The notes beneath the pieces were generated by a model. It had not been told where the DNA came from. It saw nothing but the letters and a program-made list of their open reading frames with translations, and ran no database searches. Shown here one piece after another: positions 5,416-36,436 of a stretch of DNA of 37,509 nt. The position numbers were made by a program, and so were the translations under genes. Within the stretch, counting starts at the first letter, position 1. Each line of letters opens with the position of its first letter. The stretch comes from Promethearchaeota archaeon (GTDB taxonomy: Archaea; Asgardarchaeota; Lokiarchaeia; Sigynarchaeales; SOKP01): the NCBI GenBank assembly GCA_030620005.1, contig JAUXAJ010000012.1, positions 1-37,509 of the forward strand, written 5' to 3'.

Positions 5416-5428
5416 GGGTTAACACGAG

Positions 5429-5716: not shown

Positions 5717-5957
5717 GAGCAATACTATTACCGTTACTATTAAATTTTTTGCGAACTTAAGAGAATATGGGCCAAAAAAGTCAGAAGAATTGTTTCCTAA
5801 GGGGAGTATCATCAAAACAATTCTCGAAAAATACAAGATCCCAAAAGAAGAAAAAAATCTGATAATCATGGTTAATGGAAGACCACACCAAAAAACTAAT
5901 CGTGTTCTCGCAAATAACGATATCGTTGCTGTTTTCCCTCCTATTGGTGGAGGCTAA
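5709..5957 (+). CDS. MoaD/ThiS-like sulfur carrier with GG tail
   Basis: I start this gene at the ATG at 5709 (MTESNTITVTIKFFANLREY), preceded by GGAAGAAG and overlapping the previous stop. A longer in-frame ORF from 5637 lies entirely within the preceding gene. The 82-residue product has the MoaD pattern, with VKFFANLREYG-like first strand and helix and the C-terminal FPPIGGG. The terminal glycines are those that a MoeB/E1-like enzyme would activate so that the protein can deliver sulfur, most likely for the dithiolene of the pterin used by the AOR encoded upstream. A role as a ubiquitin-like modifier is an alternative that sequence cannot exclude. It is the last gene of the operon. Confidence 0.85.
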   Translation: MTESNTITVTIKFFANLREYGPKKSEELFPKGSIIKTILEKYKIPKEEKNLIIMVNGRPHQKTNRVLANNDIVAVFPPIGGG

Positions 5958-13240: not shown

Positions 13241-14809
13241 TTAATCCTGAATAAATTTAATTGAATTTAGCATTACTTTTAATTGGTCGTAAATTTCTAA
13301 TCGATACTCAACTCCAATCTTGAAAAATAGCAGAGAAACCATTTTTTTTTCGAGGTATTCGTTAATATCAAACCCTTCCATTAATTGCGACCAATCAACA
13401 CCTTCAGACACCCGAATTCCAATCATGATAACTTTATTTTCTTCAATATCGTTTATGATTTTTATAACAATCTCTCTCCATGTAGGATCAATACAGTCCT
13501 TTTCTCTAGCGTCAAAAATTAGAAAAACGCCATCTGAGTTCGAAACATCTACATTATCGTATAAATAATTCCTTAAAGTCAAACCTTTCGAAAATTTGTA
13601 TATTTTTTCGTTGTTTTCGTCTTTTACTTTGGAGATCTCTCCTAGATCCCTTATTTCACTCAATATTTGTAAAGCGGGACTCCAGAACGGACTTTCAGTA
13701 ATAAAACATAAAGACAATGAATTTTTACTTTCTAGGATTGAATTTATCTCGTTTAAGATATCTTTTAGAAGATGACCTTCCTCCTTATCTTTAATTTTTT
13801 GGACATAATTAAAGGAAATCAAAATAAATGCGTCCTCAATGTTTTCCCCCGTTAATGCACTAGTCTCCATGTACGAAATGCGCGTGATTCCTTTTGTAGA
13901 TAATTCTGTTGCTAACTTTATACCATCTTGATATTCAATTACTCTTTGATCTACTAAATCAGACTTATTTCCAATAATAACAATAGGCAAGTCCTCGTAA
14001 TTGATAAAGTTAACCAGCTCTTCGTACCAACCATTAACATTGTCGTATGATTCTTTATTAGTCAAATCAAACACTATAAAAGCAGCTTGTGAACCAAGAT
14101 AATAGGTTTTTCGAAACCTCTTAAAATATTTTTGAGCTCCAATGTCCCAGAGCGAAAATATTATTTCGTTACCGAATAATGGAAATCTATGAGAAAACAT
14201 ATTAATCCCTATTGTTGCGCGATAATCTTTCGTGAATTTTCCTTCTACAAAGCGCCTGAGTATGGAAGTCTTTCCAACTTCGTGGTCTCCAATTATTACA
14301 AATTTAAAATGATACTTTCCACCAGAATCCAATCTCATTTGATATATTTGATTTTTTATTAGTTTTGAGCTTTCAGCACTTTTAGAGTCATATTCGAAAT
14401 TTGGAATGTGAAGTTGAATTAAGTCGTCTTCTTTAGCAGATAGAATTTGTGCCGTTTTTTCAGCTAGAAAATAACCATAAGGTGATAATTGCTCAGTGGA
14501 ACCCATTTCATCTACTACAAAGCTTAAAGTGGTTAATTCATCAACTGAAATGAATAACAAGCGATACTCATCCGTATCAAACGAGCCTGATCCAAAGTCT
14601 TTAAAAGCAAATTCATTTCGAATCCTTTCCAAGATAGGATTAACGATTGATGTTAAAACAGATAGAATTTCAAGGTCAATATCTAATTGCTTTTTTCCAG
14701 CAATGACAAGTCCGTCTTTATCAGACACAATTATGGCTTTTACATCTTTTTTGGTCGATAGGAAATTAGTAAATAACTCATTAAAAAGTGCTTCTCTTTT
14801 TACTACCAA
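13241..14809 (-). CDS. roadblock-Ras-like GTPase fusion protein (copy B)
   Basis: A 522-residue paralogue of copy A with the same order: roadblock-like 1-128, GTPase about 163-340, GTPase-like third domain about 345-520. The start is a TTG at 14807-14809. It is supported by GAGAGGT upstream and by register with copy A (LFNELFTNF against LFTNLLNNF at the same distance from the start). The P-loop is GDHEVGKT (174-181), switch I T199, NKSD 281-284, ETSA 315-318. G3 reads WDIGAQ, so the invariant glycine (Ras Gly60) is alanine while the catalytic-type Gln remains. Copy A keeps the glycine. The tail of copy A is missing. It is divergent from the RING gene. Confidence 0.85.
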   Translation of the reverse strand: MVVKREALFNELFTNFLSTKKDVKAIIVSDKDGLVIAGKKQLDIDLEILSVLTSIVNPILERIRNEFAFKDFGSGSFDTDEYRLLFISVDELTTLSFVVDEMGSTEQLSPYGYFLAEKTAQILSAKEDDLIQLHIPNFEYDSKSAESSKLIKNQIYQMRLDSGGKYHFKFVIIGDHEVGKTSILRRFVEGKFTKDYRATIGINMFSHRFPLFGNEIIFSLWDIGAQKYFKRFRKTYYLGSQAAFIVFDLTNKESYDNVNGWYEELVNFINYEDLPIVIIGNKSDLVDQRVIEYQDGIKLATELSTKGITRISYMETSALTGENIEDAFILISFNYVQKIKDKEEGHLLKDILNEINSILESKNSLSLCFITESPFWSPALQILSEIRDLGEISKVKDENNEKIYKFSKGLTLRNYLYDNVDVSNSDGVFLIFDAREKDCIDPTWREIVIKIINDIEENKVIMIGIRVSEGVDWSQLMEGFDINEYLEKKMVSLLFFKIGVEYRLEIYDQLKVMLNSIKFIQD

Positions 14810-15217: not shown

Positions 15218-15790
15218 ATGAAATGCATAATTTGTCACATGGAAATTGGCACTGAAAAGAGTGTTGAATGCCCTAATAACCATTCTACTCACGAGGATTG
15301 TTTTAAAGAATGGTTAGTCCATTCAAATCGTTGTCCTTTATGCAGTACAGAATATTCTCAAGAAGTTATTAAAACTTTTCAGAGTTTTTTAGACCAGAAG
15401 GATGCAGAAAAAAAAGAAGCGATAATTAATCAAATAAGACTAGAAACTTCGAAAAATATTGAAAATATCGCAGAAAAGATGGTTTTTTTAAAATTTGTGG
15501 AAACGATTGAGGAATTGCTGGAAAAAAAAGATTTTGATTTAGCATTAGATCGACTTGAAGCTCATGGTGAGAGGAAATTAATGGACTTTAAGGGACAAAA
15601 CCTTCTTTTTCTTAAAGGAAAATTGAACTATTTAAGAGGGCGTTATGATTTAGCTATAAATTTTTTATTTAAGCTTGTAAAAGTTCAATTTGACTATCCA
15701 GAGGCATTTCTATTTTTAGGTAAATCTTATCAAGAATTAGGTCTCGAAGAAAAAGCAAAATGGGCTTTTACGAGGATTAAAAAACTGTGA
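15218..15790 (+). CDS. RING-H2 finger protein with TPR-like C-terminus
   Basis: A 190-residue protein beginning with a textbook RING-H2 motif: C3-x2-C6-x11-C18-x3-H22-x2-H25-x2-C28-x10-C39-x2-C42. The residues that E3 ligases use to bind E2 are in place too: I4 in CIIC, W32 in CFKEWL and P40 in CPLC. Residues 45-100 are helical linker. Residues 100-190 contain two TPR-like pairs (FDLALDRLEAHG; YDLAINFLFKLVKV; PEAFLFLGKSYQELG). It would be an E3 ubiquitin ligase whose TPRs choose the substrate, as expected where an Asgard ubiquitin system exists. No ubiquitin, E1 or E2 gene is in this window. The stop overlaps the GTG of thiDN by four bases (GTGA), so the two are translationally coupled. Confidence 0.85.
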   Translation: MKCIICHMEIGTEKSVECPNNHSTHEDCFKEWLVHSNRCPLCSTEYSQEVIKTFQSFLDQKDAEKKEAIINQIRLETSKNIENIAEKMVFLKFVETIEELLEKKDFDLALDRLEAHGERKLMDFKGQNLLFLKGKLNYLRGRYDLAINFLFKLVKVQFDYPEAFLFLGKSYQELGLEEKAKWAFTRIKKL

Positions 15791-20581: not shown

Positions 20582-21403
20582 TTATAATTCATGCTTAGCA
20601 ATAAATTTAATTAGCAAGATGTTAAGAATACAGGGTATGACGCTGAACCCTAATATATACACGAAAATTACTTGCAAAACTATATCCGCTCCTGGTGCAT
20701 ATATGACTAGTGCCACCAGTGCATCAATCAGGTAATGAGTGATAATGCAGGGTATAAGGCTTTCTGTTTTTACGAATAGATATGCCAAGAATAATCCAAT
20801 AAAAAAAGCATAAAATATTTTAATTGGCAGTGCCAATATTTCTGAAAGAGACATCTCCATCCAAAAAATATTTATTATGGTTAATCCATACCAAATTCCA
20901 AATATTAATGCGTCGTAGATAATTGCCTTCCGCACTGGATATTTCTTTAAAAGAATGGTTAAAATCGCCCCTCGAAAGAAAACTTCCTCCCAAATTCCAG
21001 GAGTCAATGCTCCAAGTAGCATGAAAGAGGTAGGTGGGAGTATTTGATTTATATCAAATACATATTTCCCAGTTAGGATTGAACCAAACAGCGTACAGAT
21101 AAGCACTATAAGAGCACAACCAATCCCTAGTAAGAGATTTCGAGTTGCTGGACAAATTCTGGTCAGGCAAATACTATCTAAATATTGATGGTAGGTTTCG
21201 TGTCCGTTTGGAAGATGTAACCAAAAAGATACCACGATGAGCCACAATAAAGCTAAACTTATGAATTGCATGTAGAAATAAAATTCAAGATATATAAAAC
21301 CAACTAAAAAAAAAGGAATAATTCCCTGAAAGATCATATAGAGTACACAGAGGAGAAATATTGATAACAATGGATATTCAACTAACCTCGAATTAAATCT
21401 CAC
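20582..21403 (-). CDS. CPBP family intramembrane protease-like protein
   Basis: A 273-residue protein with about eight hydrophobic segments, a CPBP/Rce1-type (Abi) membrane protein. Motif 1 is EEVFFRG (E139, E140, R144). Motif 3 is HYLID (H223, D227). Motif 2, normally FxxxH, reads FGIWY (168-172), so the usual zinc-ligand or catalytic histidine is tyrosine. It may be inactive or use another residue. The start is a GTG with AAAGG about ten bases upstream. A (TA)n run at 21455-21469 lies about 50 bases upstream and probably acts as its TATA box. Members process prenylated or other membrane proteins, or confer bacteriocin immunity. The role here is unknown. Confidence 0.8.
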   Translation of the reverse strand: MRFNSRLVEYPLLSIFLLCVLYMIFQGIIPFFLVGFIYLEFYFYMQFISLALLWLIVVSFWLHLPNGHETYHQYLDSICLTRICPATRNLLLGIGCALIVLICTLFGSILTGKYVFDINQILPPTSFMLLGALTPGIWEEVFFRGAILTILLKKYPVRKAIIYDALIFGIWYGLTIINIFWMEMSLSEILALPIKIFYAFFIGLFLAYLFVKTESLIPCIITHYLIDALVALVIYAPGADIVLQVIFVYILGFSVIPCILNILLIKFIAKHEL

Positions 21404-21565: not shown

Positions 21566-23599
21566 TCACATTAACGATAAATCGAGAGTTTCAATAATCG
21601 TCGTAAATTGTTGGAATTTCTCCAAATTTTCTCGAGCGTTTGAAACATGTTGAGAGAACTCCTTCCAAAAACGATGAAAAATAATTGATAAAATCCTATC
21701 AATTCTTTCAATTAAAATTTTCATATCAGCTCGTCCTAAAACATAATAAAGGCTTCCTTTTTCTTTGTATATCACGAACCGATCGTTTCCTATAATAACG
21801 TTGTTAAGCTGTTGTTGACTGATTTCTAAACTAAAATTTTGTAATGCCATGAGGAATTTTCCTAGAAGATCGTTGTCTATTTTAGTTTCAGGACAATAAC
21901 TATATAATTCAATTTCATATACCGTGGAAAAAATCCATATCTCCTTTACATCTCCCATTGGGTGGTATGTTTTTGGCTCACGAGTGGAAATTTTTTCAAA
22001 TTTTTTAGTTAAATCGTTAATTTTTTGCTTGTAATAAACTGTTTTTTCATTGTTATTGAGTTCTGAATAAATACCAACAATCTGATTCAATAATTCTAAT
22101 TCTTCTTGGACAGGAGTTTTTAAAGAACCGAAAATATCGTGTGCTTTTAAAAGTTCCGACAATCCTTCTTTTTTTTTTCCAATGGCAATTAATGAGCTTG
22201 CTAATTGTCGATACATCCAAGCGGTCGTGAATAAGTCTACAAATTTATATTTTTCGATGTTTGTTAAAAAGTCATTAAGTCTTTCGATGTTTTTTTCACG
22301 CATTTGTAACTGTTCTTGTTTTTGAATAATTCTTTTAAACAAGTCGATTGTTTTTCTGTAGTTTTCATATTTTTTAGCAATTTTTAAGGCTTTCTCGTAA
22401 TATTCAAGAAATTTTTCGTTATTTTTTAAAAATTCATTAATATTTCCCATAATCTCATAAATTTGAATTAAAATTTCGTGATCTCTTGATTCAGATAATA
22501 AATTCGTAGCTTTTTCAAAATTACTTAAAGCAGCTTCAAAATAAATCTTATAATTTTCAAACTGGTTAATTCCAAATTCTTTTATATTTTTAATTGCAAT
22601 TCTAAAATTAACATCTCCTATTTCGTATAAAAGTTCAGATTGTTGTTTTTTAATAGTGTCAGATTTTTCCATGTTAACACTGATTTTTAAAGCATTTAAA
22701 AGAACTTCAAGAGCCTCATCATATTTTTCAAGATTGATAAGAATTCTTCCTTTAATCGTTAAAATTTGAAATTTGTTGATGAATTTTGCTCTTGCAATGT
22801 CAATTTTTTTTAATTTACGAAACGCCGCAAAGTAATTTTCTATCTTGTAAGCGCTAAAACCCTGCATGAAAATACTTATTTCTAGATATTTTTGATTTTG
22901 TAATTCCTCAGCTAGTTCTTCTAAACGCTTAAAAGTCTCCATTGCAACTCTATAATTTTTCTTTTGTGTGAACAAGGAGGCTATAATGTAAAGAACTTCC
23001 ATTATTAAACGCTTATTGTTTTCTTGTTCAAATTTAAGAAGTACCTTCTTTAATGTCTGATAAGCTCGGTCAAGATTTCTTGTTTTAAATAACCGTACGC
23101 CTGCTTGAAAGTCTTCTACTGCGGCAGTGTATGAATAATTTTCGCTTATTTCAATATCAGGCTCTTTAAGAGTGATTTCTTGATTAGAAACGAGGATTTT
23201 TTTTAATTCTTCGTAAAACATTTCGAGTACATTATTTTTGCCTTTTAAATATTTATCAGATATAGTAATCATGATTTTATCATAAATTTTTAATTCTTCA
23301 TCCGCAAGGTAATCTGGAACGAGAACAACAACGATAAAAGGTAAAATCTCTTCTTTTTCTTCTGATTTTGTAAGAATATCAAACAAGACTTTTGCTTTTC
23401 TGTTAAAACGATTTATTGGTATGGTAACTAACTTTTTCCTAAAAGATTTATGGGAAGAATCTCCAAGAAATTGATAACTTGTAAAAATCTGAGAAGTTAA
23501 TTTTTCAAGATCACCAACATCTGATTTGGGGTAAACATCAACAATTTCGGGACCAATATCTTCGTTCCAAAGAGCTATAAATGAAGTTAGAGCTTTCAT
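21566..23599 (-). CDS. longin-like / TPR / C-terminal longin-like domain protein (copy 2)
   Basis: A 677-residue soluble protein. Residues 1-140 form an alpha/beta domain starting ALTSFIALWNEDIGPEIVDV and including LPFIVVVLVPDYLADEEL, which I read as longin-like. Residues about 155-535 are a TPR array of amphipathic helix pairs (YRVAMETFKRLEELAEEL; YDEALEVLLNALKI; FLEYYEKALKIAKK; KKEGLSELLKAHDIF). Residues 545-650 form a second alpha/beta domain (VKEIWIFSTVYEIELYS, LLGKFLMALQNFSLEI, RFVIYKEKGSLYYVLGRAD) of the kind attached to Asgard roadblock/longin proteins. No catalytic motif is present. It is the last gene of a four-gene minus-strand cluster, 86 bases after its closest paralogue, so it may also have its own promoter. 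The fold calls are inferred by pattern, not alignment. Confidence 0.65.
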   Translation of the reverse strand: MKALTSFIALWNEDIGPEIVDVYPKSDVGDLEKLTSQIFTSYQFLGDSSHKSFRKKLVTIPINRFNRKAKVLFDILTKSEEKEEILPFIVVVLVPDYLADEELKIYDKIMITISDKYLKGKNNVLEMFYEELKKILVSNQEITLKEPDIEISENYSYTAAVEDFQAGVRLFKTRNLDRAYQTLKKVLLKFEQENNKRLIMEVLYIIASLFTQKKNYRVAMETFKRLEELAEELQNQKYLEISIFMQGFSAYKIENYFAAFRKLKKIDIARAKFINKFQILTIKGRILINLEKYDEALEVLLNALKISVNMEKSDTIKKQQSELLYEIGDVNFRIAIKNIKEFGINQFENYKIYFEAALSNFEKATNLLSESRDHEILIQIYEIMGNINEFLKNNEKFLEYYEKALKIAKKYENYRKTIDLFKRIIQKQEQLQMREKNIERLNDFLTNIEKYKFVDLFTTAWMYRQLASSLIAIGKKKEGLSELLKAHDIFGSLKTPVQEELELLNQIVGIYSELNNNEKTVYYKQKINDLTKKFEKISTREPKTYHPMGDVKEIWIFSTVYEIELYSYCPETKIDNDLLGKFLMALQNFSLEISQQQLNNVIIGNDRFVIYKEKGSLYYVLGRADMKILIERIDRILSIIFHRFWKEFSQHVSNARENLEKFQQFTTIIETLDLSLM

Positions 23600-23685
23600 A
23601 TCTATTCTGTTTTATTCTTTCATTCTATCTATAAATTATATATCAACTTTTTTAATTTTATAAAACATTAAAAATACCGTTTTAT

Positions 23686-25710
23686 TCAAGAGTTTTCAAC
23701 CCATTTTAAAAATTCATCAAAGCGCCCTACATAACCGTCAAACTTGTTTATATCTTCTAAAAATTCTTTATACCGATTCCAAAATTCGTCGTAAATTCTT
23801 TTAAGAGACTCTTGTACCAAATTTTCGGGTATGTTTTTATTAGAGCGCCCTAAAATAAAGATAGGATGGTTTTCTTGTTTAAAAATCGTAAAAACATCAA
23901 TTCCCGTGTCCATAGATTTTAATTCTTTAGAAGTTAAAGTTTCACAGAAGTACAGAAAAGCAGAGATAAAACCACCGAATAGGTCGGGATTCTGTTTAGT
24001 TTCTGGAGCGTAAGAGATAAGGTTTAATCCGTCTTCCGTGCAGATCCAGATTTCTTTCAAGTTTCCTAAAGCACCATATTTTCCCTTTTTTTCTAACTGT
24101 AATTCTTGAATTTTTATTTTTAATTGATCATGTTGATCTTGATAATATTGTGCATAATTGTCTTCTTTTAAACTTTCATAAATCTCAATTATATTTCGCA
24201 ATGTTGTTAGTACATCCTCCACTGGTGTTTCGAACTTATCATAAATGTTCTTAGCAATTAATAACTCTGAAATTGCTTCTTTTGCGCGACCAATTTTGAA
24301 TAAGGACACTCCTAATTGTCTATGAAATCCGGAGATTGTAAAGAGATCCATGTATGCGTACGAAACCACCTTAGAAAGCATTTCATCAATTTCTTTAACA
24401 ATATTCTCGTGCATTTCTAATCTTTCTAAAGCCAGGATTATTAAATTGAAAATTATAAACTTACTTACCAAATCATTGGTTAAATCTGTATAATATAATG
24501 ATTTTCTATAACTATCTATAGATCGCGGCAAATTGTCCATTATATCGTAAATATTACCGATTAATTGATATATGTGTATAAGATTCTCATAATTCGATAA
24601 TTCTTCCCAAATCTTAATGCTCTCATTGTAATAATCAATTATTTCAAGTAATTTCGAATTTAAAATATCTTGTTCTAAGCTTCCTTTATTCAAGCTATCA
24701 ATGACCATGATATAACTTGTATTGCCCAGTTCAAGTAACGTTTTCGCTTGCTTTTCTTTATTAATAATCGTTATTTCTAACTTTTTAATTATTTCTAAAG
24801 CTTTTAAGAAAAAATTGATAGCTTTATCATTTTGCTTTAATTTTGTTAACACTTGTCCGTATATAAAATAAAAGCGAAATTTGTCTAAAAATTTGATTTT
24901 CTTCGATTCTAATTCGCTAAACTTTGTCATGGCAACCGAATAATCCCCAACTTTAAACGCACATAAGCCCTCCATGAATAAAGCGGTCTCACGATATTTT
25001 TGATGTTTAAGCTCATTTGAGAGATTTTCTAAAATTTCGAAATATTCCTGGGCAGCGTTGAATTTTTTTAGTTGGGACAAAGCAGAACCGAGAAAAAACG
25101 AGGCTTGAAGGATTAAATCTAACTTATTCTCTTTTTGAAATTGCGTGAATGCAGATTTCAATAAAACAAAGGCTTTCTTAAAATTTTTCTTTTTGAATTG
25201 ATCTACTCCTTTCGCATAATCCAAACCAGCTTCTTTTAGAGAATAATCCCTGTCAATACTAATATCTGCATCCTTAATTTTTTCTTCTAACAAAAATTGT
25301 TCGGTAATTTTATCAAAATGTTTTTTCAATAAAGGATTCTTAAGCTCGATGTATTCAATTCCAATATTGTAAATTATATCATCGAATTTTGTTAAATCCT
25401 CCTCAGAAATGTAGTCCGGAAACAAAAAAGTAACAATAAAAGGTTGGATCTTCTCCTCGTTATTTGGATTTTTAAACGAATCTAAAAAAACTCTTGCTGT
25501 ACGATTAATATTTATAAGAGGGAGCTTAAAAAATGCGCGTTCTATTTTTCCTTTTTCATCTTCTTTTGAAAAGAAATTATGATAGGCAAGAAAAATTTGC
25601 CGTGTAGTTTGTTCTAAATCAAATTTAGATTTAATCGATCTAGGATAAAATTCTATTATATTTACTCCTGTATTTTTATCCCAACTGGCTATAAAGGCGG
25701 AGATTTTCAT
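23686..25710 (-). CDS. longin-like / TPR / C-terminal longin-like domain protein (copy 1)
   Basis: A 674-residue paralogue of the downstream gene over its full length. Matching landmarks are the N-terminal SAFIASWDKNTGVNIIEFYP, LPLININRTARVFLDSF and PFIVTFLFPDYISEEDL, the TPR core beginning YAKGVDQFKKKNFKKAFVLL, and the C-terminal LKEIWICTEDGLNLISYAPE with FILGRSNKN. The two clearly arose by tandem duplication and have since diverged strongly. No enzyme motif or membrane segment is present. The ATG overlaps the stop of the 805-residue gene by four bases (ATGA), so the two are translationally coupled. Function unknown; an adaptor or tethering role with small GTPases or their roadblock partners is a reasonable inference. 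Confidence 0.65.
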   Translation of the reverse strand: MKISAFIASWDKNTGVNIIEFYPRSIKSKFDLEQTTRQIFLAYHNFFSKEDEKGKIERAFFKLPLININRTARVFLDSFKNPNNEEKIQPFIVTFLFPDYISEEDLTKFDDIIYNIGIEYIELKNPLLKKHFDKITEQFLLEEKIKDADISIDRDYSLKEAGLDYAKGVDQFKKKNFKKAFVLLKSAFTQFQKENKLDLILQASFFLGSALSQLKKFNAAQEYFEILENLSNELKHQKYRETALFMEGLCAFKVGDYSVAMTKFSELESKKIKFLDKFRFYFIYGQVLTKLKQNDKAINFFLKALEIIKKLEITIINKEKQAKTLLELGNTSYIMVIDSLNKGSLEQDILNSKLLEIIDYYNESIKIWEELSNYENLIHIYQLIGNIYDIMDNLPRSIDSYRKSLYYTDLTNDLVSKFIIFNLIILALERLEMHENIVKEIDEMLSKVVSYAYMDLFTISGFHRQLGVSLFKIGRAKEAISELLIAKNIYDKFETPVEDVLTTLRNIIEIYESLKEDNYAQYYQDQHDQLKIKIQELQLEKKGKYGALGNLKEIWICTEDGLNLISYAPETKQNPDLFGGFISAFLYFCETLTSKELKSMDTGIDVFTIFKQENHPIFILGRSNKNIPENLVQESLKRIYDEFWNRYKEFLEDINKFDGYVGRFDEFLKWVENS

Positions 25711-28124
25711 GATGTAATGAATTGGTCCAAGTGACTTTTTATCTCCAGGAATTTTTTCATGGATTCTTGTAATTCGATTTTTTTCAAAGCATTTATGCCT
25801 TCCTTACTTAATTGATTGATTAAAATTTTTAATTCTTCGAATTTGTATAACTCGAGAAGTTTATAATGATAATTACGAGTTCCAGTTTTCATTTCCCCCA
25901 CATTCCATTTGACAAGTTCACCTTGATCAGCACTAGTCGTATCATGAGGTAAAAGCTTTGGTTCTTCAATGAAATGAATATAATAAAGCGGAATTATATC
26001 TTCAATTATTACACCTTTAATTATTTCATAAGTGTTTGTAAAAGGCATTTTAGCCTCAAAAAGGCCTTCTAAATCCCGTGCATGTATATTAGAGTGAGTC
26101 TTTACGATTTTCAGCTGATCCTCAAGTAGAAATATTATTGAACGCGAAACTCTTCGTCGTAAATTATAATTAATTTCTACTTTTTCTTTAGGCTGAATGT
26201 TCTTTATTTGCCAATTTACCTCAATACCATCTGCTGTAAGAGATTTATCAGGTAATTCCTTAACGGATTGACCATTCAATTCCACATCGACAATTTCAAA
26301 ATTGTAAGGAATTAGATCGGTAATAATTGCTTCTTCAATTACATCATCAAATGGATTGATTAATCCCGACTGGATGATATAATTTGCTCTGTCATCGTCT
26401 TCTGATTTTTGAACATCTATTATTTTTTCGAGCTCAGAAATATCTCCGGAGGCACTAGTTAACAAGACTTTGTTTGTTATTGTGTTTTTAATTTCAACTC
26501 GATGTTCGTTAAGGATGGATTCAATTTGTTCCAACGATTCGCTAGCATCTTCGGATAAATCACCTAAAATCTCGTCAATAGAAAATTCTTCAACTAGGGG
26601 TAATACATCCTCATCTACTTCGATTATTTCTTCAATTTCTTTTGCTTTTTCTATTAATTTATCGCGTTCTTCAAGAACAAGTAGTTTAGCGGCTTCTTTT
26701 TCTTCAAGTTCGGTTTTAACTTGCTCGTATAATTTGGAATATTTCACAATTAATTCATCTTTTGAGAACGCATCGGCGATTTCGATGATTCTTTCACAAT
26801 TGTTCATAGCCATTAATAAACTACCTTTTTCCCTATTTTGCTTGAATTTCTTTTCAAGCTCTTTCATTTCTTTAGACAATTGCTCTTGAAGTTGCTTGTT
26901 TGCAGAAAAATCCTTTTTTAGTTTCTCCCTTAATTCAGAATATTTTTTTACCAAATCTTCTCTGTTTAATGAGCTTGCAATTCGTATTATCCTGATACAA
27001 ATCCGAGTTGCTTCTTGAATATTTCCTTTTTTTTGATGAATTTCGAATTTTTTCTCTAATTCCTCTAGATTTTCAATGGCTTTTATCTTTTTTTTTACGT
27101 CTTCTAATACTTTTCTGTATTTTCTCGTTGTCTCGTATTTTTTAACGCTTCTAGATATTTCAATAATTTTTTCGCAATCAGTTAATACATCCTTAAAATT
27201 TCCACTTTCTAAATTTTTGTCGATTCTAATTTCTAATTCTTCCATGTTTTTTAACGCATTTCCATACTTTTCTTTAGCTACCTGTATTTCCTTTATGATC
27301 TCTTCTTTAATTTGTGAATATCTATCACTCAATTCTGTTAACTTTAGGGAATTAGCTAATTCGATGATTTTTTCGCAATTTCGTAGCGCTGTTTCATACC
27401 TTTCATTTGTTCGATTTAAACTAATATTCTTTTCTAATCTCGAAATTCCTTTTAGTCCTTCAATTTTTTTTGTTACTTCTTCTAAAATCTTCGAATATTT
27501 TCTTTTAATATCGATTTTCTTAATAGATTCGGATATATTAATAATTTTCTGACAAATAATTGCGGTTGTTTCAAAATCGCCATTCTCTTTGCTAAGTTTT
27601 AATTGTTCTTCTAAATCTGCTATTTTTTCCATCCCTTTTTCATATTTTTCCTTGGTAGCAGAGATTTCTTTTCGTTTTTCAAATAATCGTTTGTTAAACA
27701 CTTTATCTTCTTCTAAACGAATTAATTCAATCATTTCTTCAATTTTTACCCTGGCTTCATCAAATTTAAATTGCATGACCAATCGATCACTTTCTTTCAT
27801 GGCATTTTCAATTAGTTCAATAGTTTCTTCGTTAAGTTTTTCCTCCACGAAATAAAATTTATAATCATATCGCTTTTGCTTTCCTTTAATTACTTCACAT
27901 GAACTTAAAATTATATTCCTATAGGTATTTCTCCAAGTAGAGATGTTTTTTTTAAAACCTGCTTTCTTAATTCTTTCTGTTTCGTCTATTCTCTCGACTT
28001 TTTCAACGATTTGCTCCTTAAAAATATCTTTATAATATTTTAAAAGCAAATCCTTTATCTCCTTCTTCCTTCCAAGAAAAACATTCTTATATTTTACGAA
28101 AATTTCGTTAATTTCTTCACTCAT
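25707..28124 (-). CDS. helical-repeat protein with two C-terminal beta-sandwich-like domains
   Basis: An 805-residue protein. Residues 1-100 are an unrecognised N-terminal part. Residues 168-475 hold five copies of a helical repeat with the core NCEKIIEIA...KYSKI. Their marker cysteines are at 191, 250, 317, 376 and 443, with spacing alternating 59 and 67 residues, so the true unit is a pair of about 126. Residues 480-560 are acidic linker. Residues about 580-665 and 690-770 are two related beta-rich domains (EEAIITDLIPYNFEIV with VNWQIKNIQPKEKVEINYNL; KGVIIEDIIPLYYIHF with VKWNVGEM), resembling DUF11-like sandwich modules usually seen on cell surfaces. There is no signal peptide. The gene starts 28 bases after the 928-residue gene and shares its repeat family. 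Confidence 0.65.
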   Translation of the reverse strand: MSEEINEIFVKYKNVFLGRKKEIKDLLLKYYKDIFKEQIVEKVERIDETERIKKAGFKKNISTWRNTYRNIILSSCEVIKGKQKRYDYKFYFVEEKLNEETIELIENAMKESDRLVMQFKFDEARVKIEEMIELIRLEEDKVFNKRLFEKRKEISATKEKYEKGMEKIADLEEQLKLSKENGDFETTAIICQKIINISESIKKIDIKRKYSKILEEVTKKIEGLKGISRLEKNISLNRTNERYETALRNCEKIIELANSLKLTELSDRYSQIKEEIIKEIQVAKEKYGNALKNMEELEIRIDKNLESGNFKDVLTDCEKIIEISRSVKKYETTRKYRKVLEDVKKKIKAIENLEELEKKFEIHQKKGNIQEATRICIRIIRIASSLNREDLVKKYSELREKLKKDFSANKQLQEQLSKEMKELEKKFKQNREKGSLLMAMNNCERIIEIADAFSKDELIVKYSKLYEQVKTELEEKEAAKLLVLEERDKLIEKAKEIEEIIEVDEDVLPLVEEFSIDEILGDLSEDASESLEQIESILNEHRVEIKNTITNKVLLTSASGDISELEKIIDVQKSEDDDRANYIIQSGLINPFDDVIEEAIITDLIPYNFEIVDVELNGQSVKELPDKSLTADGIEVNWQIKNIQPKEKVEINYNLRRRVSRSIIFLLEDQLKIVKTHSNIHARDLEGLFEAKMPFTNTYEIIKGVIIEDIIPLYYIHFIEEPKLLPHDTTSADQGELVKWNVGEMKTGTRNYHYKLLELYKFEELKILINQLSKEGINALKKIELQESMKKFLEIKSHLDQFITS
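26700..27623 (-). repeat. five coding helical repeats (59/67-residue alternation)
   Basis: Protein-level repeats inside the 805-residue gene. Each unit contains a ...GDFxxAxxNCEKIIEIA... helix pair followed by KYSKIxEEVKKxI. They are diverged at DNA level, so this is old duplication and not a recent array. Confidence 0.75.
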
Positions 28125-28152
28125 AGATATTACAACCCTTTTACATTTTTAA

Positions 28153-30939
28153 TTAATCGCTAAATTCCTTTTTATAATCCTCAAATTTATTGATAACCTT
28201 TTCAAACACTTCAAGCGTTTCTTTAATGGCACCTTTATTTAAAAGTTCCAATCCGTTATTATTTAATTCAATAATTTTTGATTTAAATTCGTCAAAATTA
28301 TCCAATACTTCGTGCTTCTTTTCTTCAGCAGCTTCACTCAACTTCTTAATATCTTCGAATATTTGAGTATACTTGCCCAGGATCTCATCATTACCAATAG
28401 TTTTTGACACCGTTATAATTTTCTCACAATTTTGTAGGGCAGTTTTGAAATCTTTATTCTTCCTATTTTCTTCGATAATTTTTTCGAGTTTCTTTACTTC
28501 TTCAATCAATTTTTCGTATTTCTCTTTTGCAACGATTAGTTCTTTTCTCTTTTCTTCTAATTTCTTCTTATATTCAGGAAAGTCTTGTTCTTTTAATAGC
28601 TCTAACATTGAATCTATTTTTGATATTGCGTCTTCAAACTGAAAGCGATCTACTAATTTAGAGCATTCTTCATCTAAATTTTTGATGATTTCTTTAATAT
28701 CACTTATTTCCCTCTTTATTTCCTCAATAGCCAGCGTGTATTTATCAATGGCCCACTTTATTCCTAACGGTTCAGAGATTTCTATGATTTTCTCGCAGTT
28801 TTGTAAGGCGGCATTAACATTCTTGGCCTTGAGATTATTTTTAATTTCAGTTCCCAATCTACTAATTTCGTCATTTATTCTTTTGTATTTCTCTTCAGCG
28901 TCAATTAACTCTTTTCTCTTTAAATCTAATTTTTTGTATTCAGGAAGGTTTTCATTCTGTAATAATTCTAAAATTGAATCTATTTTTTTTATAGCATCAC
29001 GATATTGAAAATTTTCTACTAATTTAGAACATTCTTCGTCTAGAAATTCGATTTTTTCATTCAATTCATTTAATTCTTCCTTTACTTGTTCTAAAATCTT
29101 GGAATAATTGTTTAAAACGGTATCATTTCCAATTTTTTCAGAGATCTGAACGATTTTTTCGCAATTAAGCAAAGCGGCGTTTAAATCTCTATTTTCTTGA
29201 TTCTCCTTGATTAATCCTTCAAGCTTGCTGATTTCTTCATTTATTTTATCAAGTTTTTCCTTGGAGGCCATGTATTCTTTTCTTTTTTCTTTTAGTTCAT
29301 CCACATATTCTGTAAAATCCTGATTTTTCAACAATTCTAACATTGAATCGATTTTTAAGATTGCTTTATCTATCTGGAAATTTTTTATTAGTTCATTACA
29401 CTCATCGTATAGCGCATTGATATCATTGAGTGAAATTTCCATTTGTTTCTTGAGCTGTTCTAAGATCTCGGAATATTTATCTTCAACAGCCTTATCTCCA
29501 ATTGATCCTGACAATTCAATAATTTTTTCGCAATTAAGCAATGCAGTTTTAAGATCATTATCCTTCCGATTTTTTTCAAGTATTCTTTCAAATTTGCGTA
29601 TTTCTTTTGTAATTTTATTGTATTTTTGTTCAGCTTCAATTAATTCGTTTCTCTTTTCTTCTAATTTTTTCTCACATTCAGGAAGGTCTTGCGTTTTTAT
29701 ATATTTCAACATTGAATCTATAATTACAAGCGCCTCTTTGAAGGAAAAATTATTCATCAATTCTGAGCTGTTAATAAGTGTTCTTTCGACTTCCTTGATA
29801 AGATCTGATTTCTTTAAGACTTCCTTTTTTTTCACGCCCGCCGCAAAATCGTTTTCAATTTTGGCCCATTTTTTTATTAAAGCCTCATCGTTTAGTTTAA
29901 ACAGTAGGCTCCAAGCGTCTTCTATGATATTTCTTGCTGCTTTTCTATTATTAGCTTCTACAAATTTATTAAACTGATATTCTAATTGCACGAGTTCTTT
30001 TCTTGCATTTTCTTGTCCAGATGTGAAATCTTGCCATAATTCTTCGTCTTTTGAAATGAAATATTGAGCAGCTGGTATAATTGGTAATTCTTGATAATCT
30101 TGATATTTTCTGACAAAATTCTGTACAATTTCTTGCGCTTCATTAATTTTTTTAAGTGCTACCAAGTCATCAAATTCATTCCTGACAGCCTTACTCTCTG
30201 CTTTAACTTCTTCAATTGTATATTTTTTATAAGTTCTCCCCAGTAATCTGGCTATATATTCTTCTTGCTCTCTTACTATTTCTTCGAGATCAGCTTCTTC
30301 AGCAATACTAATAATATCCTCAGCGATTCTAATTGCTTCATAGACTTCTCCTAATCTTTCGTGATTTCCTTGCGTAATTCTTAGTTCGTCTATTTGTGCT
30401 ATTACACCTATAATTTTCCTTCTTTCAATGTCTTCAATGCTATCTTTTAAATTTTGTTGGTCTTTTTCAAGAGCCTTATCTTCAATTTTTCGAGCTAATT
30501 CAATGATTTCGTCAGATATCCCGTAAGCTTTATTGAATTCCTCTGAATCAATTAAATCGTCTATTTTCTCCTTCAATTTATCAATTTCTGAGAGAACTGG
30601 AAGGATTTTTTCCTCCTGTGCTTTGATACGAGCCTCCAATTCTTCTCCCGTGAACTCAAAATTTTCCATGAAATTGAAAGTCTCTGAACCAGATTCAATT
30701 GTAATGTTACGCAAGACGCGTAATTCCGGATGATCTTTAGAGAAGAGCTCTCGTGCGTGAGGAATGAAAATCCTCAAGCTTGTTGAGGCATATTGTCCGA
30801 TCCAAAAAAATAGGTGCTTGTCGCTATAAATACCAAGAATATCATATAAAGTGAATAAATCTAATGGTGACTCTGTTGACACTTCATTGAAAGAACCGGA
30901 GTAATTTAATCTGAATATTTTCAGTTTTTCATCAATCAT
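28153..30939 (-). CDS. gelsolin-like domain protein with long helical-repeat array
   Basis: A 928-residue protein and first gene of the cluster. Residues 5-95 look like one gelsolin/villin-type domain: KIFRLNYSGSFNEV, then LYDILGIYSDKHLFFWIGQY, FIPHARELF, and RVLRNITIESGSETFNF before FMENFEF. These correspond to the gelsolin pattern IYVWxGKxS ... VxxGxEPxxFWxxF. Residues 100-380 are irregular helices of the same repeat family. Residues 386-873 contain four tandem 122-residue units, each made of DEECSKLVxxFQ, KIDSMLELL, EEKRKELI and NCEKIIEIS, with marker cysteines at 470, 593, 715 and 838. The C-terminal 55 residues are one more helix pair. It has no catalytic motif or transmembrane segment. 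An actin-associated or scaffold role is inferred from the gelsolin-like domain only. Confidence 0.65.
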   Translation of the reverse strand: MIDEKLKIFRLNYSGSFNEVSTESPLDLFTLYDILGIYSDKHLFFWIGQYASTSLRIFIPHARELFSKDHPELRVLRNITIESGSETFNFMENFEFTGEELEARIKAQEEKILPVLSEIDKLKEKIDDLIDSEEFNKAYGISDEIIELARKIEDKALEKDQQNLKDSIEDIERRKIIGVIAQIDELRITQGNHERLGEVYEAIRIAEDIISIAEEADLEEIVREQEEYIARLLGRTYKKYTIEEVKAESKAVRNEFDDLVALKKINEAQEIVQNFVRKYQDYQELPIIPAAQYFISKDEELWQDFTSGQENARKELVQLEYQFNKFVEANNRKAARNIIEDAWSLLFKLNDEALIKKWAKIENDFAAGVKKKEVLKKSDLIKEVERTLINSSELMNNFSFKEALVIIDSMLKYIKTQDLPECEKKLEEKRNELIEAEQKYNKITKEIRKFERILEKNRKDNDLKTALLNCEKIIELSGSIGDKAVEDKYSEILEQLKKQMEISLNDINALYDECNELIKNFQIDKAILKIDSMLELLKNQDFTEYVDELKEKRKEYMASKEKLDKINEEISKLEGLIKENQENRDLNAALLNCEKIVQISEKIGNDTVLNNYSKILEQVKEELNELNEKIEFLDEECSKLVENFQYRDAIKKIDSILELLQNENLPEYKKLDLKRKELIDAEEKYKRINDEISRLGTEIKNNLKAKNVNAALQNCEKIIEISEPLGIKWAIDKYTLAIEEIKREISDIKEIIKNLDEECSKLVDRFQFEDAISKIDSMLELLKEQDFPEYKKKLEEKRKELIVAKEKYEKLIEEVKKLEKIIEENRKNKDFKTALQNCEKIITVSKTIGNDEILGKYTQIFEDIKKLSEAAEEKKHEVLDNFDEFKSKIIELNNNGLELLNKGAIKETLEVFEKVINKFEDYKKEFSD
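28321..29784 (-). repeat. four tandem 122-residue coding repeats
   Basis: Four protein-level units of 122-123 residues within the gelsolin-like gene. Units 3 and 4 still share near-identical segments such as DEECSKLV and CEKII, so the array may expand by duplication. Half of each unit is the NCEKIIEIS repeat of the neighbouring 805-residue protein. Confidence 0.8.
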
Positions 30940-31226: not shown

Positions 31227-32381
31227 ATGCAAAAATCCGATTATTTAAACATGATCAAGGATAATGTACTTGTATTTAACATCAATCTTTCCCCAGAATT
31301 TCAAGGAGAAAAATTGGATAATCACCTCAATAATTTTGACGAAAATTCTCTTAAAATAATTGCTGGATGCAACCAATATCTTCTTGAGTATTTCTTAACT
31401 ATCTCGAAAGGAAAATCTCAAAAAGACATGGAAGAATCACTTAAAAAAATGGAAAAATTATCGTACATGATTGGTCCTACTGGTAATTTGAGTTATTTGG
31501 GATCAAATCAAATAGAATACATTTTAACTAAGTTGGATTCGTTAATATTAAATGAGATTTCTGAAGCGAAAATTAGCTTAATTGCAGACGAACAACTAGA
31601 GAAAGAATTTGGAGCAGGGCAATACAACGAGTCTACGGCTCTAGAAAATCAGTTGGCAAGCGCAGAATTTTATCTCAAGGAAATGGGTTATAGTCACACC
31701 GATATTCAGGCTAAAATAAGAGAAATAAAACTAGAACCTAAAAAATTGGACGAATTATTTAATCTCCCCCCGAAAGAAATATATAGCGTGCCTCCAGAAT
31801 TAGAAGGAGGAGGAGACGGTTTAGCTCCTTCCAACGCACGGGACAGCGAAATTACTCAAGAGGTGCAAAAAGCCATTTCTCGCCACGTGCAATCAATCCA
31901 CCACGACTTATCCGAACAGAGAGTAAAGAAAATTAATGAGATAATGGAAAAGATAAAGGCTCACGTGAAAGATGACATGAATGACGAATACGAGAAGGTT
32001 TATGTACAGATACATCCTGATAGGTTAAATCGTGCCCTTAAAGTGTTTAAAGAAACTAAAAGGAAATCTAAAAGACAAAAACTGCTTTTAGAATGGTTCT
32101 TTACTACACATTTATTAGAGAATATAGAAGTTCGAGTTGAACATTGGCAAACGTCGGCTCGAGCCGATAGAAGTGCTGCTGGTGTTTACACTGCAGGTAT
32201 TTCCTTTTGCAGATATGATCAAATCGTAAGAGAATTTTCCGATTCCAAGTTTTCGAAGGTTATCAATATTACAAGACGGATACTACAAAAACCTTCTAAA
32301 AAAGCAATTCAAAAATTGGGACAAGACCTAGTTGCAGAAACGGGATTCGAAGAACACTTGTATTTCTACCCCGATGATTGA
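31227..32381 (+). CDS. hypothetical protein with possible UBA-like segment
   Basis: A 384-residue soluble protein I do not recognise. Residues 1-125 are mostly helical. Residues about 138-180 contain AEFYLKEMGYSHTDIQAKIR, reminiscent of the UBA fold with its MGF/MGY loop (153-155). A glycine/proline-rich linker (PPELEGGGDGLAPSN, 189-203) separates this from a charged helical C-terminal half, where VEHWQTSARADRSAAGVYTA is the most distinctive stretch. There is no signal peptide or membrane helix. If the UBA reading is right, it could act with the ubiquitin-type machinery suggested by the RING protein in this window, but this is a weak inference. It stands alone, divergent from the four-gene cluster. 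Confidence 0.6.
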   Translation: MQKSDYLNMIKDNVLVFNINLSPEFQGEKLDNHLNNFDENSLKIIAGCNQYLLEYFLTISKGKSQKDMEESLKKMEKLSYMIGPTGNLSYLGSNQIEYILTKLDSLILNEISEAKISLIADEQLEKEFGAGQYNESTALENQLASAEFYLKEMGYSHTDIQAKIREIKLEPKKLDELFNLPPKEIYSVPPELEGGGDGLAPSNARDSEITQEVQKAISRHVQSIHHDLSEQRVKKINEIMEKIKAHVKDDMNDEYEKVYVQIHPDRLNRALKVFKETKRKSKRQKLLLEWFFTTHLLENIEVRVEHWQTSARADRSAAGVYTAGISFCRYDQIVREFSDSKFSKVINITRRILQKPSKKAIQKLGQDLVAETGFEEHLYFYPDD

Positions 32382-32806: not shown

Positions 32807-35800
32807 ATGATTGATATTAATTGTCCATTGTGTGGGGAAAAAGGAAATGAATCAAAAAGTATTTCAAATCATTTCAAATTAGAACATCCTTGGTTTTACA
32901 AAATTATTCAAAAAAGACAATATTATATTGATGTTTGGGGATTTGACCCATTAACTAATGTAACTCAAGTAAAAAAAAGTCAACATGAAGTTTACTATCA
33001 TGAGATATATAATTCAAAGTATAAATTCGAAGAATCCTACGAATTGAATAATGATCCGATACTTAAGGATGTAGGCGTGAAAATTTTAGCAAGAACCTAT
33101 GTTGGTGCTAATGGAGTTTTTAATAAGATTGTTTTTACACATGATCAAAGAGAACATTTAGTTAATTGCAATTTATATTCAATCATTAAAAGACCTATTT
33201 CACTTTTTGAGAGTTTAGGTAATAGTGTTTTACCTATAGCTGTTATTAGTTTAGAAGATATTGCAGCTCAAAATCCTATACTACCAAGTGATGAATTTGT
33301 GTATTTAAAATCTTATATTGCAGGTATTGCAGAATTAGGGTTAGAAAACATTCTATCTGCCAATATGGAGTTTAAGAAAGGTGAAATCCAACTATTTCCT
33401 TTTACTTTTCAAGAAAATTTGAGAACAGAAATTGCTATAGCAATTTTTAAAATTAAAGTGGGAAATATTTTCTTTTCAAATATGATTGATAATGTTATTT
33501 CTCAAAAGAATTCGTCTAAAATGAAAGGAATCAGATGGTTTTTAAAATTAAAGTGGGGAACATTTGCACTTAGATCAATTGTTTTAAATCCCAAAACTCC
33601 GCTAAATGTTCTAATATTTCTTGCAAATAATGGAGATTCACAAGCAAAAAAAGCTTTATCACATAATCCAAAAATTCCTGAAAAATATCTCCAGAATATT
33701 GCATATAATTATCCAGATTGGTTTTGGAATGCTAAAAGACAAGATTTCTCCAAAGAATTCATGAATACAATAATTTTAACAAAATTAATCCTTGAAGAAA
33801 AAGTTACTGAGAATATTGATGAAACTCAAATTGAAGAACTTATGAAATTTAATAACAGAAAAATTAGAAAATTTATTGCGGGGCATCCAAATACACCACC
33901 TAATATTTTAAAAAAACTTGCAATGGTTTCTGATCAACAAGTTTTGAATGTAGTTGTTAATAATCCAAACTCTTCTTCAGATATTTTAATGTTGGCAGAT
34001 TGGACAAAAACCTTGAAAGAAATTTCTGGAATTATTGGTAAAAAAAAGATCAAAATTCCAACGAACATTCTTCATCAACTTAAAAATTCAATAGATCCCC
34101 GCATTAGAGGTATTATTGCTACATTTCCCAAAACCCCAGTGGATATATTAGACTTTCTATCGAAGGATGATCATGATTTCACCAGAGTATCTGTTTCTAA
34201 TAATAAAAACACAAGCTCAGGTATATTATCTTTATTAAAGAATGATGTAGAAAAGGAAGTGAGAAATGGTGTTGCAGGGAATCCAAATTGTACTTCAGAA
34301 ATGCTTGAATATCTAGCATATGATATTTCGCCAAAAGTGAGAGAAACTGTTGCTAGGAATCCAGAAACACCCCAAAAATCCCTATCATTTTTGGTTAATG
34401 ACTATAATAAAAGTACTCGTTGGGAAATCGCTAGAAATTCTAATACTTCACCATCCATATTATATTTTCTCACCAATGATTACGAAAACCATACCCGTGA
34501 GGAAGTGGCTAAAAATCCCAATACAAATTTAGATATTCTTGAAATACTTGTGACGGATCCACATTGGATTGTTCGAAGGACAGTTGCGGAGCGGGATGAT
34601 GTTACATCATCACTTTTATTAACGCTTTCTCAAGATAGTTCATGGACAATCCGAAAAATAGTAGCAAAACACCTAAAAACTCCAATAAAAGCATTAGAAA
34701 TAGTTGGGTTGAATATCCCTAAAGGACGAGACGCACCTGCAAAAGTACTTGTAGATGATGTTCTCAAGATTTTAGCTGAAAGAGAAGATACTCCCTCTCA
34801 TGTTCTAGAACACTTAGAAAAGGAAAAAAATCATTATGTTAATGAAATTTTAGCAGGCAATCCACATACTCCAAAGCATGTTTTAGAGAATCTTGTAGAG
34901 AGAATGAACACAAAAATTAAAGTTGCCCTTGCAAAAAACCCTAACTCCACACCATACATATTAGGAAAATGTGCAGATTCTTTTGTAGAGCCCAGAAAAT
35001 CTGTAGCAGGAAACATTCATGCTCCATCAGATTTATTAAATAAATTAGGTGGAGATAAGGAAGAAATTGTTAGAAATGCCGTTGCTAACAACCCCAAAGC
35101 ACCAGCAGCTGCTCAAAAAAAGGTTAAATTTATTCATGAATTCTTACATGCTAAAAAAGGAAATATCAACAAGAGTACTTTTGAATATCTATTTCGCTTA
35201 AGTCATGAATGGATAAGAGAAAAGGTAGCCTCTCATCCAGAAACCCCAATTGAAATACTTGAAAAACTTTCTAAAAATAGAAAGACTGCTGTGCAAAGGG
35301 CCGTAGCGAGAAACCCTAAAACTCCAATTACATTATTGAGGGTTATAGCAAAGGATAATTCTTCTTATGTTAGATGTGAAGTAGTGTATAATCCCAACAC
35401 ACCATTAGATTTGTTTGAAACTTTGCTTTTGGATAAAGAACGGGAGGTTCATAGAGCTTTGGCACAAAGTCCTTACACACCCGTAGATATACTTGAAAAA
35501 ATCTCAAAAAAAAAGAATGTAAAAATACTAAATGCGTTAGCAGAAAATAAAAACGCTCCAAAAACAATTCTTGCGAGGTTATCAAAGCATGAAGATAAAT
35601 ACATTCGAAGAGCTGTTGGTGGGAATGTAAATACTCCCGAAAAAACTCTCGAATTATTGATTGACGATGAAGATAAATATGTAGTTGAAGCAGTTGCAAA
35701 AAATCCTGCTATTACTACATCTCATTTTTCACAATTAGTAAGTCTAAAAAAGTATAGTATTTCAGATATAATAGCAAAAAGAACTCAAATTCCTTTAGAA

Positions 35801-36436
35801 ATTCAAGAAAAACTTGCTCAATACGATGATTCGTCAATAAGATTCACTTTAGCAAGAAACTCAAGTGTATCTGAAAAGATTCTTGTAGAACTTTCAAAGG
35901 ATACAAGTAAATTAGTCAGAGAATATATACTAAAAAATGCTAATGCACCTCTTTCTATTTTAAAACGTCTTGCAGTTGATGAAGAAGTAAGTGTACGAGA
36001 AGCAGTTTTAAGTAATCCTAATATTAATCAAGAAATTCTTAAAATCCTAGCACATGACGAAAACTATAGGATTATAGAAAAAGTCTTGAAAAGACCTAAT
36101 AATAGTATAGAAATCTATAACATTCTATCCTCCAATGATAATTACAATTTTCGTATCAAAGTAGCTAAAAATCTAAATACACCTTTATCAATACTAGAAT
36201 CCCTTTCCAAAGATAAAAATTCCAACGTAAGAAAGGCATTAATTCAAAATCCTAATACACCGCTTACAGTCTTAGAATCACTTGCTAAAGATGAAGATGA
36301 ATCTGTTAGATTGGAATTGGTAGGTATAAATGATTTATCAATAGATATAATAAAAATACTACTTGACGATTGTGATTTAGAAATTAAATATACTGCTAAA
36401 AAAAGAATGGAAGACTGGACCGAGAAAACCAAATAA
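32807..36436 (+). CDS. giant LRV-repeat protein with N-terminal C2H2 zinc finger
   Basis: A 1209-residue protein. Residues 5-28 form a C2H2 zinc-finger-like motif: C6-x2-C9-x12-H22-x4-H27. Residues 30-250 are a non-repeat region of mixed strands. From about residue 255 to the end there are about 33 units of roughly 24-26 residues built on VRxxVAxNPNTPxxILexLakD. This is the leucine-rich repeat variant (LRV) pattern, which folds as an all-helical superhelix. LRV proteins known from bacteria carry an N-terminal iron-sulfur motif; here a zinc finger takes that place. Units 12-14 (around 34590-34800) are irregular, with a small insertion. It probably binds protein or nucleic acid partners; the function is unknown. 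The gene is monocistronic. Confidence 0.8.
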   Translation: MIDINCPLCGEKGNESKSISNHFKLEHPWFYKIIQKRQYYIDVWGFDPLTNVTQVKKSQHEVYYHEIYNSKYKFEESYELNNDPILKDVGVKILARTYVGANGVFNKIVFTHDQREHLVNCNLYSIIKRPISLFESLGNSVLPIAVISLEDIAAQNPILPSDEFVYLKSYIAGIAELGLENILSANMEFKKGEIQLFPFTFQENLRTEIAIAIFKIKVGNIFFSNMIDNVISQKNSSKMKGIRWFLKLKWGTFALRSIVLNPKTPLNVLIFLANNGDSQAKKALSHNPKIPEKYLQNIAYNYPDWFWNAKRQDFSKEFMNTIILTKLILEEKVTENIDETQIEELMKFNNRKIRKFIAGHPNTPPNILKKLAMVSDQQVLNVVVNNPNSSSDILMLADWTKTLKEISGIIGKKKIKIPTNILHQLKNSIDPRIRGIIATFPKTPVDILDFLSKDDHDFTRVSVSNNKNTSSGILSLLKNDVEKEVRNGVAGNPNCTSEMLEYLAYDISPKVRETVARNPETPQKSLSFLVNDYNKSTRWEIARNSNTSPSILYFLTNDYENHTREEVAKNPNTNLDILEILVTDPHWIVRRTVAERDDVTSSLLLTLSQDSSWTIRKIVAKHLKTPIKALEIVGLNIPKGRDAPAKVLVDDVLKILAEREDTPSHVLEHLEKEKNHYVNEILAGNPHTPKHVLENLVERMNTKIKVALAKNPNSTPYILGKCADSFVEPRKSVAGNIHAPSDLLNKLGGDKEEIVRNAVANNPKAPAAAQKKVKFIHEFLHAKKGNINKSTFEYLFRLSHEWIREKVASHPETPIEILEKLSKNRKTAVQRAVARNPKTPITLLRVIAKDNSSYVRCEVVYNPNTPLDLFETLLLDKEREVHRALAQSPYTPVDILEKISKKKNVKILNALAENKNAPKTILARLSKHEDKYIRRAVGGNVNTPEKTLELLIDDEDKYVVEAVAKNPAITTSHFSQLVSLKKYSISDIIAKRTQIPLEIQEKLAQYDDSSIRFTLARNSSVSEKILVELSKDTSKLVREYILKNANAPLSILKRLAVDEEVSVREAVLSNPNINQEILKILAHDENYRIIEKVLKRPNNSIEIYNILSSNDNYNFRIKVAKNLNTPLSILESLSKDKNSNVRKALIQNPNTPLTVLESLAKDEDESVRLELVGINDLSIDIIKILLDDCDLEIKYTAKKRMEDWTEKTK
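33567..36400 (+). repeat. about 33 LRV coding repeats
   Basis: Protein-level repeats of about 24-26 residues marked by an NPNTP-type turn (RNPKTP, KNPNTN, GNPHTP and others) followed by a hydrophobic ILxxL helix. Individual units differ in DNA sequence, so this is not a recent tandem array. Confidence 0.75.

Follow-up and report, generated by a model that had tools for sequence, protein, structure and literature searches.

Described relatives of the cluster and its layout

Asgard longins and gelsolins, as well as the idea of inferring GTPase function from operons, are discussed in PMC4917890, PMC6393860 and PMC9834061. According to PMC10933270, Asgard roadblock, longin and TRAPPC3 proteins assemble into dimers resembling those of TRAPP and Ragulator, the longin being represented there by an AlphaFold model; the longin topology b-b-a-b-b-b-a-a (b, strand; a, helix) is described there as well. 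PMC10936438 reports Asgard longins joined with adaptin appendage, Vps28-C, tetratricopeptide repeat (TPR) or Ig-like domains. Here we describe a cluster of four adjacent genes, A to D, from a Promethearchaeota archaeon, whose types of part are known while their architecture and linkage look new. The cluster lies within a stretch of 37,509 nucleotides (contig JAUXAJ010000012.1), called the window in the following. Its features are:

28153-30939, minus strand: gene A, 928 residues, ATG start; N-terminal gelsolin-like domain followed by a helical repeat region
30604-30930, minus strand: gelsolin-like domain of A, residues 4-112
25707-28124, minus strand: gene B, 805 residues, ATG start; helical repeats followed by a conserved C-terminal region, bct
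25710-26657, minus strand: bct region of B, residues 490-805
23686-25710, minus strand: gene C, 674 residues, ATG start; longin-like domain, TPR solenoid, longin domain
25258-25710, minus strand: N-terminal longin-like domain of C, predicted b-b-a-b-b-b-a-a
23689-24075, minus strand: C-terminal longin domain of C, of a family whose profile matches MON1 and BET5
21566-23599, minus strand: gene D, 677 residues, ATG start; paralogue of C, alignable over the full length
21584-21964, minus strand: C-terminal longin domain of D

A and B are separated by 28 bases, B and C share a 4-base ATGA overlap, and C and D are 86 bases apart. The coordinates confirm the gene sizes, strand and spacing given in the original prediction, which had been made from the sequence alone. 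Its statement that none of the products has a catalytic motif or a membrane segment holds as well: the only Pfam families above cut-off are TPR families in C and D (TPR_12 and TPR_8 above the curated cut-off in both), with none in A or B, and by hydropathy only no membrane segment was found in A-D, the highest 19-residue Kyte-Doolittle mean being 1.72 within a TPR helix of C.

The MON1/CCZ1/FUZ/INTU/HPS Rab guanine nucleotide exchange factors (GEFs) have three longin domains each. C and D resemble MON1-CCZ1, FUZ-INTU and HPS1-HPS4 in being two related longin proteins and in their C-terminal longin family, whose nearest relatives by profile are the first longins of MON1, FUZ and HPS1. Unlike these tri-longin factors, the model of C has two longin-type domains around a TPR solenoid. 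BET5 (TRAPPC1) of TRAPP, the second-best PDB family for the same domain, is likewise a longin, but in the PDB matches it is a chain of 154-159 residues without TPR. A general Pfam scan of the window proteins contained no TRAPPC3-like family. With the Asgard proteins joining Vps28-C, adaptin appendage and longin in PMC10936438, the cluster shares longin, TPR and beta-sandwich types of part; here, in contrast, the beta-sandwiches have a gene of their own, the TPR is enclosed by the longins, and Vps28 is absent from the Pfam matches of A-D. No description of longin-TPR-longin pairs, of the bct family or of the linkage of both with gelsolin-like genes was found in a literature search that left preprints and most subscription papers outside.

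Conservation of the gene linkage among Asgard relatives

Relatives were collected by whole-genome searches confined to the phylum of genome G004 (genomes are numbered with G, loci with L). The bct region was detected at E 1e-5 in 69 of 227 genomes and the gelsolin domain at E 1e-3 in 43. At least 19 of the 69 bct genomes (G045-G055, G057, G001, G091 at two places, G092, G094, G095, G103 and G157) have a bct and a longin-TPR match on one strand with no more than 682 bases between them. Among these 20 places bct comes first in 16 and longin-TPR in 4. In a second arrangement, which at least 14 of the 43 genomes with the gelsolin domain have, a standalone longin lies 1.8-2.0 kb downstream of a gelsolin gene and in the same orientation; at L121, the one such locus read, a helical gene similar to the helical region of A lies between the two. 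In agreement with this, the locus tags in named records are ACFFBP_17800 for a relative of C and ACFFBP_17805 for a relative of B. All four loci in which relatives of C were found by name in GTDB contigs are titled Lokiarchaeota or Lokiarchaeia.

A and B are also found joined. Among 120 listed proteins (B and its relatives), 63 carry the gelsolin-like domain of A at their own N-terminus. Single open reading frames of the form gelsolin-helix-bct occur at L026, L030, L089, L090 and L093, and gene pairs divided as in the window at L035, L087, L088, L091 and L092. Because about half of the listed relatives of B carry this domain, A and B look like the two pieces of a fusion protein that many relatives encode in a single gene.

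C and D are paralogues, as the original prediction had claimed, with 31% identity over 675 columns (4e-109). A maximum-likelihood tree of 38 rows separates them by a 100/100 branch, with the D-type clade at 98/97. Both types are present in the window, G002, G003, G004 and G157. C immediately precedes D in G004 and G002, and two Arf-like GTPase genes lie between them in G003. Judged from these sequences, the C/D duplication predates the relatives compared. That the paralogues have long been kept side by side suggests that they may form a heterodimer.

The conserved gene order and the fusions together support a common function of A-D. On these comparisons, the reading of A-D as a conserved Asgard module instead of a chance neighbourhood is well supported, and since relatives often keep the genes together or fused, A-D probably act as one complex. 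Of the adaptor or tethering complex proposed originally, the common function is thus supported; the complex itself, its binding to actin or GTPases and a tethering role are putative.

Three observations weigh against such a reading. Full-length relatives of C and D were found at E 1e-40 in just 11 of 227 genomes. For 50 of the 69 bct genomes the matches listed include no bct/longin-TPR adjacency. The longin pair of G004, like that of G002, sits on another contig than the gelsolin-bct pair. The second point would suit an explanation in which the genes are neighbours through duplication and co-transcription only, in agreement with the tendency of repeat proteins to duplicate in tandem. Against it stand the adjacency of two unrelated families, bct and longin-TPR, in two orders in at least 19 genomes and the A/B fusions, and we regard it as quite improbable. 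The gene-neighbourhood check suggested with the original prediction did not overturn the cluster, the order being conserved. Nor did its condition on the terminal folds, which are related to longin and gelsolin, the N-terminal longin being so by predicted topology only.

The 50 genomes without a longin-TPR neighbour include those with bct proteins of ~520 residues; the names of relatives of this size are mostly Heimdallarchaeota or 'Asgard group'. A gene of 201-207 residues and unknown family lies directly upstream, within a few bases of bct, in 10 of the 14 loci read with a 500-540-residue bct protein (L098, L100-L104, L107-L110). By eye, the bct protein of these ten loci holds a third beta-sandwich-like stretch. 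At L035 (G103) the relative of C beside A and B contains 9 stop codons (~4944-5915) while A and B stay open; possibly the longin partner is decaying in this one lineage.

Proteins A and B

The original prediction had assigned the first two products to one helical repeat family, and this assignment was borne out: the NCEKIIEIS-type pattern occurs four times in A, three times in B and not at all in 20 other window proteins tested, and BLASTP aligns A and B across their helical parts at 3e-32. The helical region of A has a supra-repeat of ~123 residues.

The predicted gelsolin-like domain of A is supported by profile searches. Against the PDB, the A3 profile of the domain matched villin at 1.2e-13 and the Lokiarchaeota 2DGel at 2.1e-8. 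Pfam Gelsolin was matched by 5 of 22 members of the domain family (best 4.4e-6), the window member alone giving no match. In this domain A resembles villin and the Asgard gelsolins (2DGel and the single-domain form). It differs from them in that one gelsolin-like domain was detected, placed on a long helical region, and in its calcium-ligand columns. The positions of the canonical type-2 calcium ligands, as read from the villin alignment, correspond to two columns occupied by I/V/A and L/I/V/K and are non-acidic in 22 of 22 members; 5 of the 22, the window included, have D or E in the column preceding the first of them.

The domain raises the question whether A and B might organise actin through it, with C and D merely multimerising A/B and playing no GTPase role. 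Such an actin-side scaffold would be in agreement with the clear gelsolin-like domain and with its tie to longin genes in two arrangements, the one at L121 included. The non-acidic ligand columns argue against it and equally weigh against an actin contact in a larger complex. Moreover, a gelsolin fold need not mean actin, since such folds also act as plain binding modules (Sec23/Sec24). We consider an actin-side scaffold unlikely, and return to A-D as one complex in which A/B would be a part.

For bct the model (predicted local distance difference test, pLDDT, 88.7) shows two predicted beta-sandwiches followed by a helical hairpin, in agreement with the beta-sandwich expected in the second gene. 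bct gave no clear match in the PDB. Foldseek ranked the COPI delta mu-homology domain first for the model (E 5.7e-3, TM 0.20), a domain that is absent among the VIA matches listed for the same model. Alpha_adaptinC2 is touched by 1 of 33 bct members at E 0.12. Ig-like repeats of the DUF11/B_ant_repeat kind are alike in that DUF11 is touched by 8 of the 33 (best 9.8e-7), with no DUF11 match for the window's own bct; the conserved double sandwich with helical hairpin, on the other hand, exceeds one DUF11 unit. From 7994 candidates scored, 66 bct relatives were found, and all organism-named ones are Asgard except one labelled Bathyarchaeia. Given this number of candidates and genome searches within one phylum, a restriction of bct to Asgard archaea is rated as likely only.

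These likenesses bear on a coat-like explanation, in which A-D would sort cargo at a membrane and GTPases would merely recruit the complex. The adaptor protein (AP) and COPI coats likewise contain longin domains, alpha-solenoids and paired beta-sandwiches, the Foldseek and Alpha_adaptinC2 matches point in the same direction, and Arf-like GTPases adjoin relatives of C/D at L025 and at L023, where in G004 31 bases separate the Arf-like gene from the relative of D. The fused Vps28-C, adaptin appendage and longin proteins of PMC10936438 would fit as well. We regard an adaptor or coat role as improbable compared with a scaffold complex of A-D that handles the GTPase itself.

Proteins C and D and the small GTPases

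In the model of C (pLDDT 84.1) the longin order b-b-a-b-b-b-a-a is predicted at both ends around a TPR superhelix: at residues 4-146, with blocks at pLDDT 58-88, and at residues 553-673. The superhelix has the LGN/Pins TPRs as top structural matches, a likeness to that scaffold in the common repeat fold only.

The C-terminal longin is supported by profile. A profile of 21 mainly C/D-type sequences matched MON1 at 3.9e-4 and BET5 at 1.2e-3 in the PDB. With 29 sequences, many of them standalone relatives, the values were 9.2e-8 for MON1 (best single stretch 1.5e-6), 3.1e-4 for BET5 and just 0.3 for roadblock. In Pfam, 13 members of the larger set matched Fuz_longin_1 (MON1, FUZ, HPS1; best 1.2e-8) and 5 matched Longin. 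Two points weaken the comparison with MON1, showing that the likeness leans on the standalone relatives: Fuz_longin_1 is matched by just 2 of the 21 mainly C/D-type sequences (best 0.0021), and the sole Pfam match of the window's own C-terminal longin is Intu_longin_1 at 0.13. Of 222 genomes of the phylum, 165 have a Fuz_longin_1 match at E<=0.001, 99 of them above cut-off, as compared with none of 14 control genomes; the longin itself is therefore a common component in Asgard archaea.

The N-terminal domain of C and D is longin-like by predicted topology only, so that the longin-TPR-longin architecture proposed originally is carried by the profiles at one end and by the model at the other. 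Against a longin at this end, neither PDB nor Pfam gave a longin match by sequence. The sole longin-type trace was Folliculin at E 0.055 in 1 of 23 members. Some relatives, at L029, L031, L032 and L034, lack the domain altogether. A profile comparison gave no relation to the C-terminal longin, and a distant copy of it was rejected. The W-D-x-x-x-G-P start may resemble that of NPRL2-type longins.

The family of this N-terminal domain occurs widely, with matches at E<=1e-6 in 80 of 227 genomes, and often sits behind a response-regulator receiver, in 11 of 20 matches whose sequences were read by eye. Such fusions are located at L089:226-1164, L023:10261-10977 and L147-L156, and many more receiver-type candidate open reading frames of ~300 residues are among the matches. 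The fusions possibly link phosphorelays to longin machinery. Taken further, the domain could be a docking module that also serves as response-regulator output domain, with C and D relaying two-component signals. The CheY-like receivers in front of its relatives (Response_reg 1.6e-25 at L089) and the fact that a gelsolin-bct gene on the other strand neighbours the L089 fusion are in line with this. The Pfam scan of the window genes, in contrast, contained no receiver or kinase family, and the fusions of ~300 residues leave no room for a TPR part. A signalling scaffold is thus rather improbable, and small GTPases are the candidate partners to which we return for C and D.

Within 3 kb of module genes we counted 10 GTPase genes against 2.81 expected (54 loci; 3.6-fold, Poisson P 7e-4), with G004 and G002 (76 in 7.6 Mb) supplying the background density. 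This enrichment is suggestive. It is tempered by a count that treats orthologous or related loci as independent and by the mixed class of the neighbours, which are Arf-like, Rag-like or Ras-like, the Ras-like ones with or without a preceding roadblock; one GTPase class acting as the sole partner was rejected on this ground. Nor does any GTPase gene lie within 3 kb of the cluster in the window itself. The two that the original prediction had named as possible partners, at 9950-11656 (568 residues) and 13241-14809 (522 residues), have a Ras-like GTPase domain behind mutually related N-terminal domains of ~150 residues, which had been called roadblock and have no Pfam match. They lie over 6 kb from the cluster, behind unrelated genes on either strand, and were rejected as members of it; the window itself therefore gives no link between them and the cluster.

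Proposed mechanism, surroundings and significance

Starting from the computed domain identities, the conserved adjacency, the fusion of A and B in relatives and the ancient C/D pair, we propose that the products of A-D make up a single scaffold complex, conserved in Asgard archaea. C and D would pair through their longin domains and thereby offer a platform for binding and controlling a small Ras-superfamily GTPase. This step is drawn by analogy with MON1-CCZ1 and TRAPP, whose longin pairs work on Rab GTPases. The TPR solenoids of C/D would dock onto B and A, the helical region and double beta-sandwich of B would present the complex to a partner or cargo, and the gelsolin-like domain of A would attach it to actin or another partner. 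That A-D act as one functional module we hold to be quite probable. The full mechanism, with a C/D heterodimer on a GTPase, an A/B scaffold and an actin contact, is doubtful as a whole, and module and mechanism combined are put forward as a tentative best explanation.

The cluster is flanked by genes of other kinds. Upstream of A a divergent open reading frame occupies 31227-32381 on the plus strand, and at 32807-36436, on the strand opposite to the cluster, a protein of 1209 residues rich in LRV/HEAT-type repeats is encoded. On the same strand as the cluster, 162 bases downstream of D, lies a gene for an Rce1-like (CPBP) protease of 273 residues (20582-21403); it was rejected as a cluster member, having no relative at E<=1e-5 in 14 relative loci. 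Further away, at 15218-15790, a 190-residue protein combines a RING-type zinc finger with a weak TPR match, its gene overlapping by 4 bases with a ThiD-ThiN fusion gene.

Gelsolin, longin and GTPase genes are abundant in Asgard genomes. A module that repeatedly ties a gelsolin-like domain, longin-TPR proteins and a little-known beta-sandwich family to each other names concrete partners. In its most far-reaching form, A-D would be a pre-eukaryotic coupler of GTPases to actin, in which a MON1-like longin heterodimer with TPR solenoids controls membrane GTPases and is bolted to actin via A/B, which bring in a double beta-sandwich particular to Asgard archaea. We consider this form unlikely; if true, it would be a precursor of the tether/GEF or coat scaffolds of eukaryotes. 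The MON1/BET5-type longins place the module near later regulators of eukaryotic membrane traffic.
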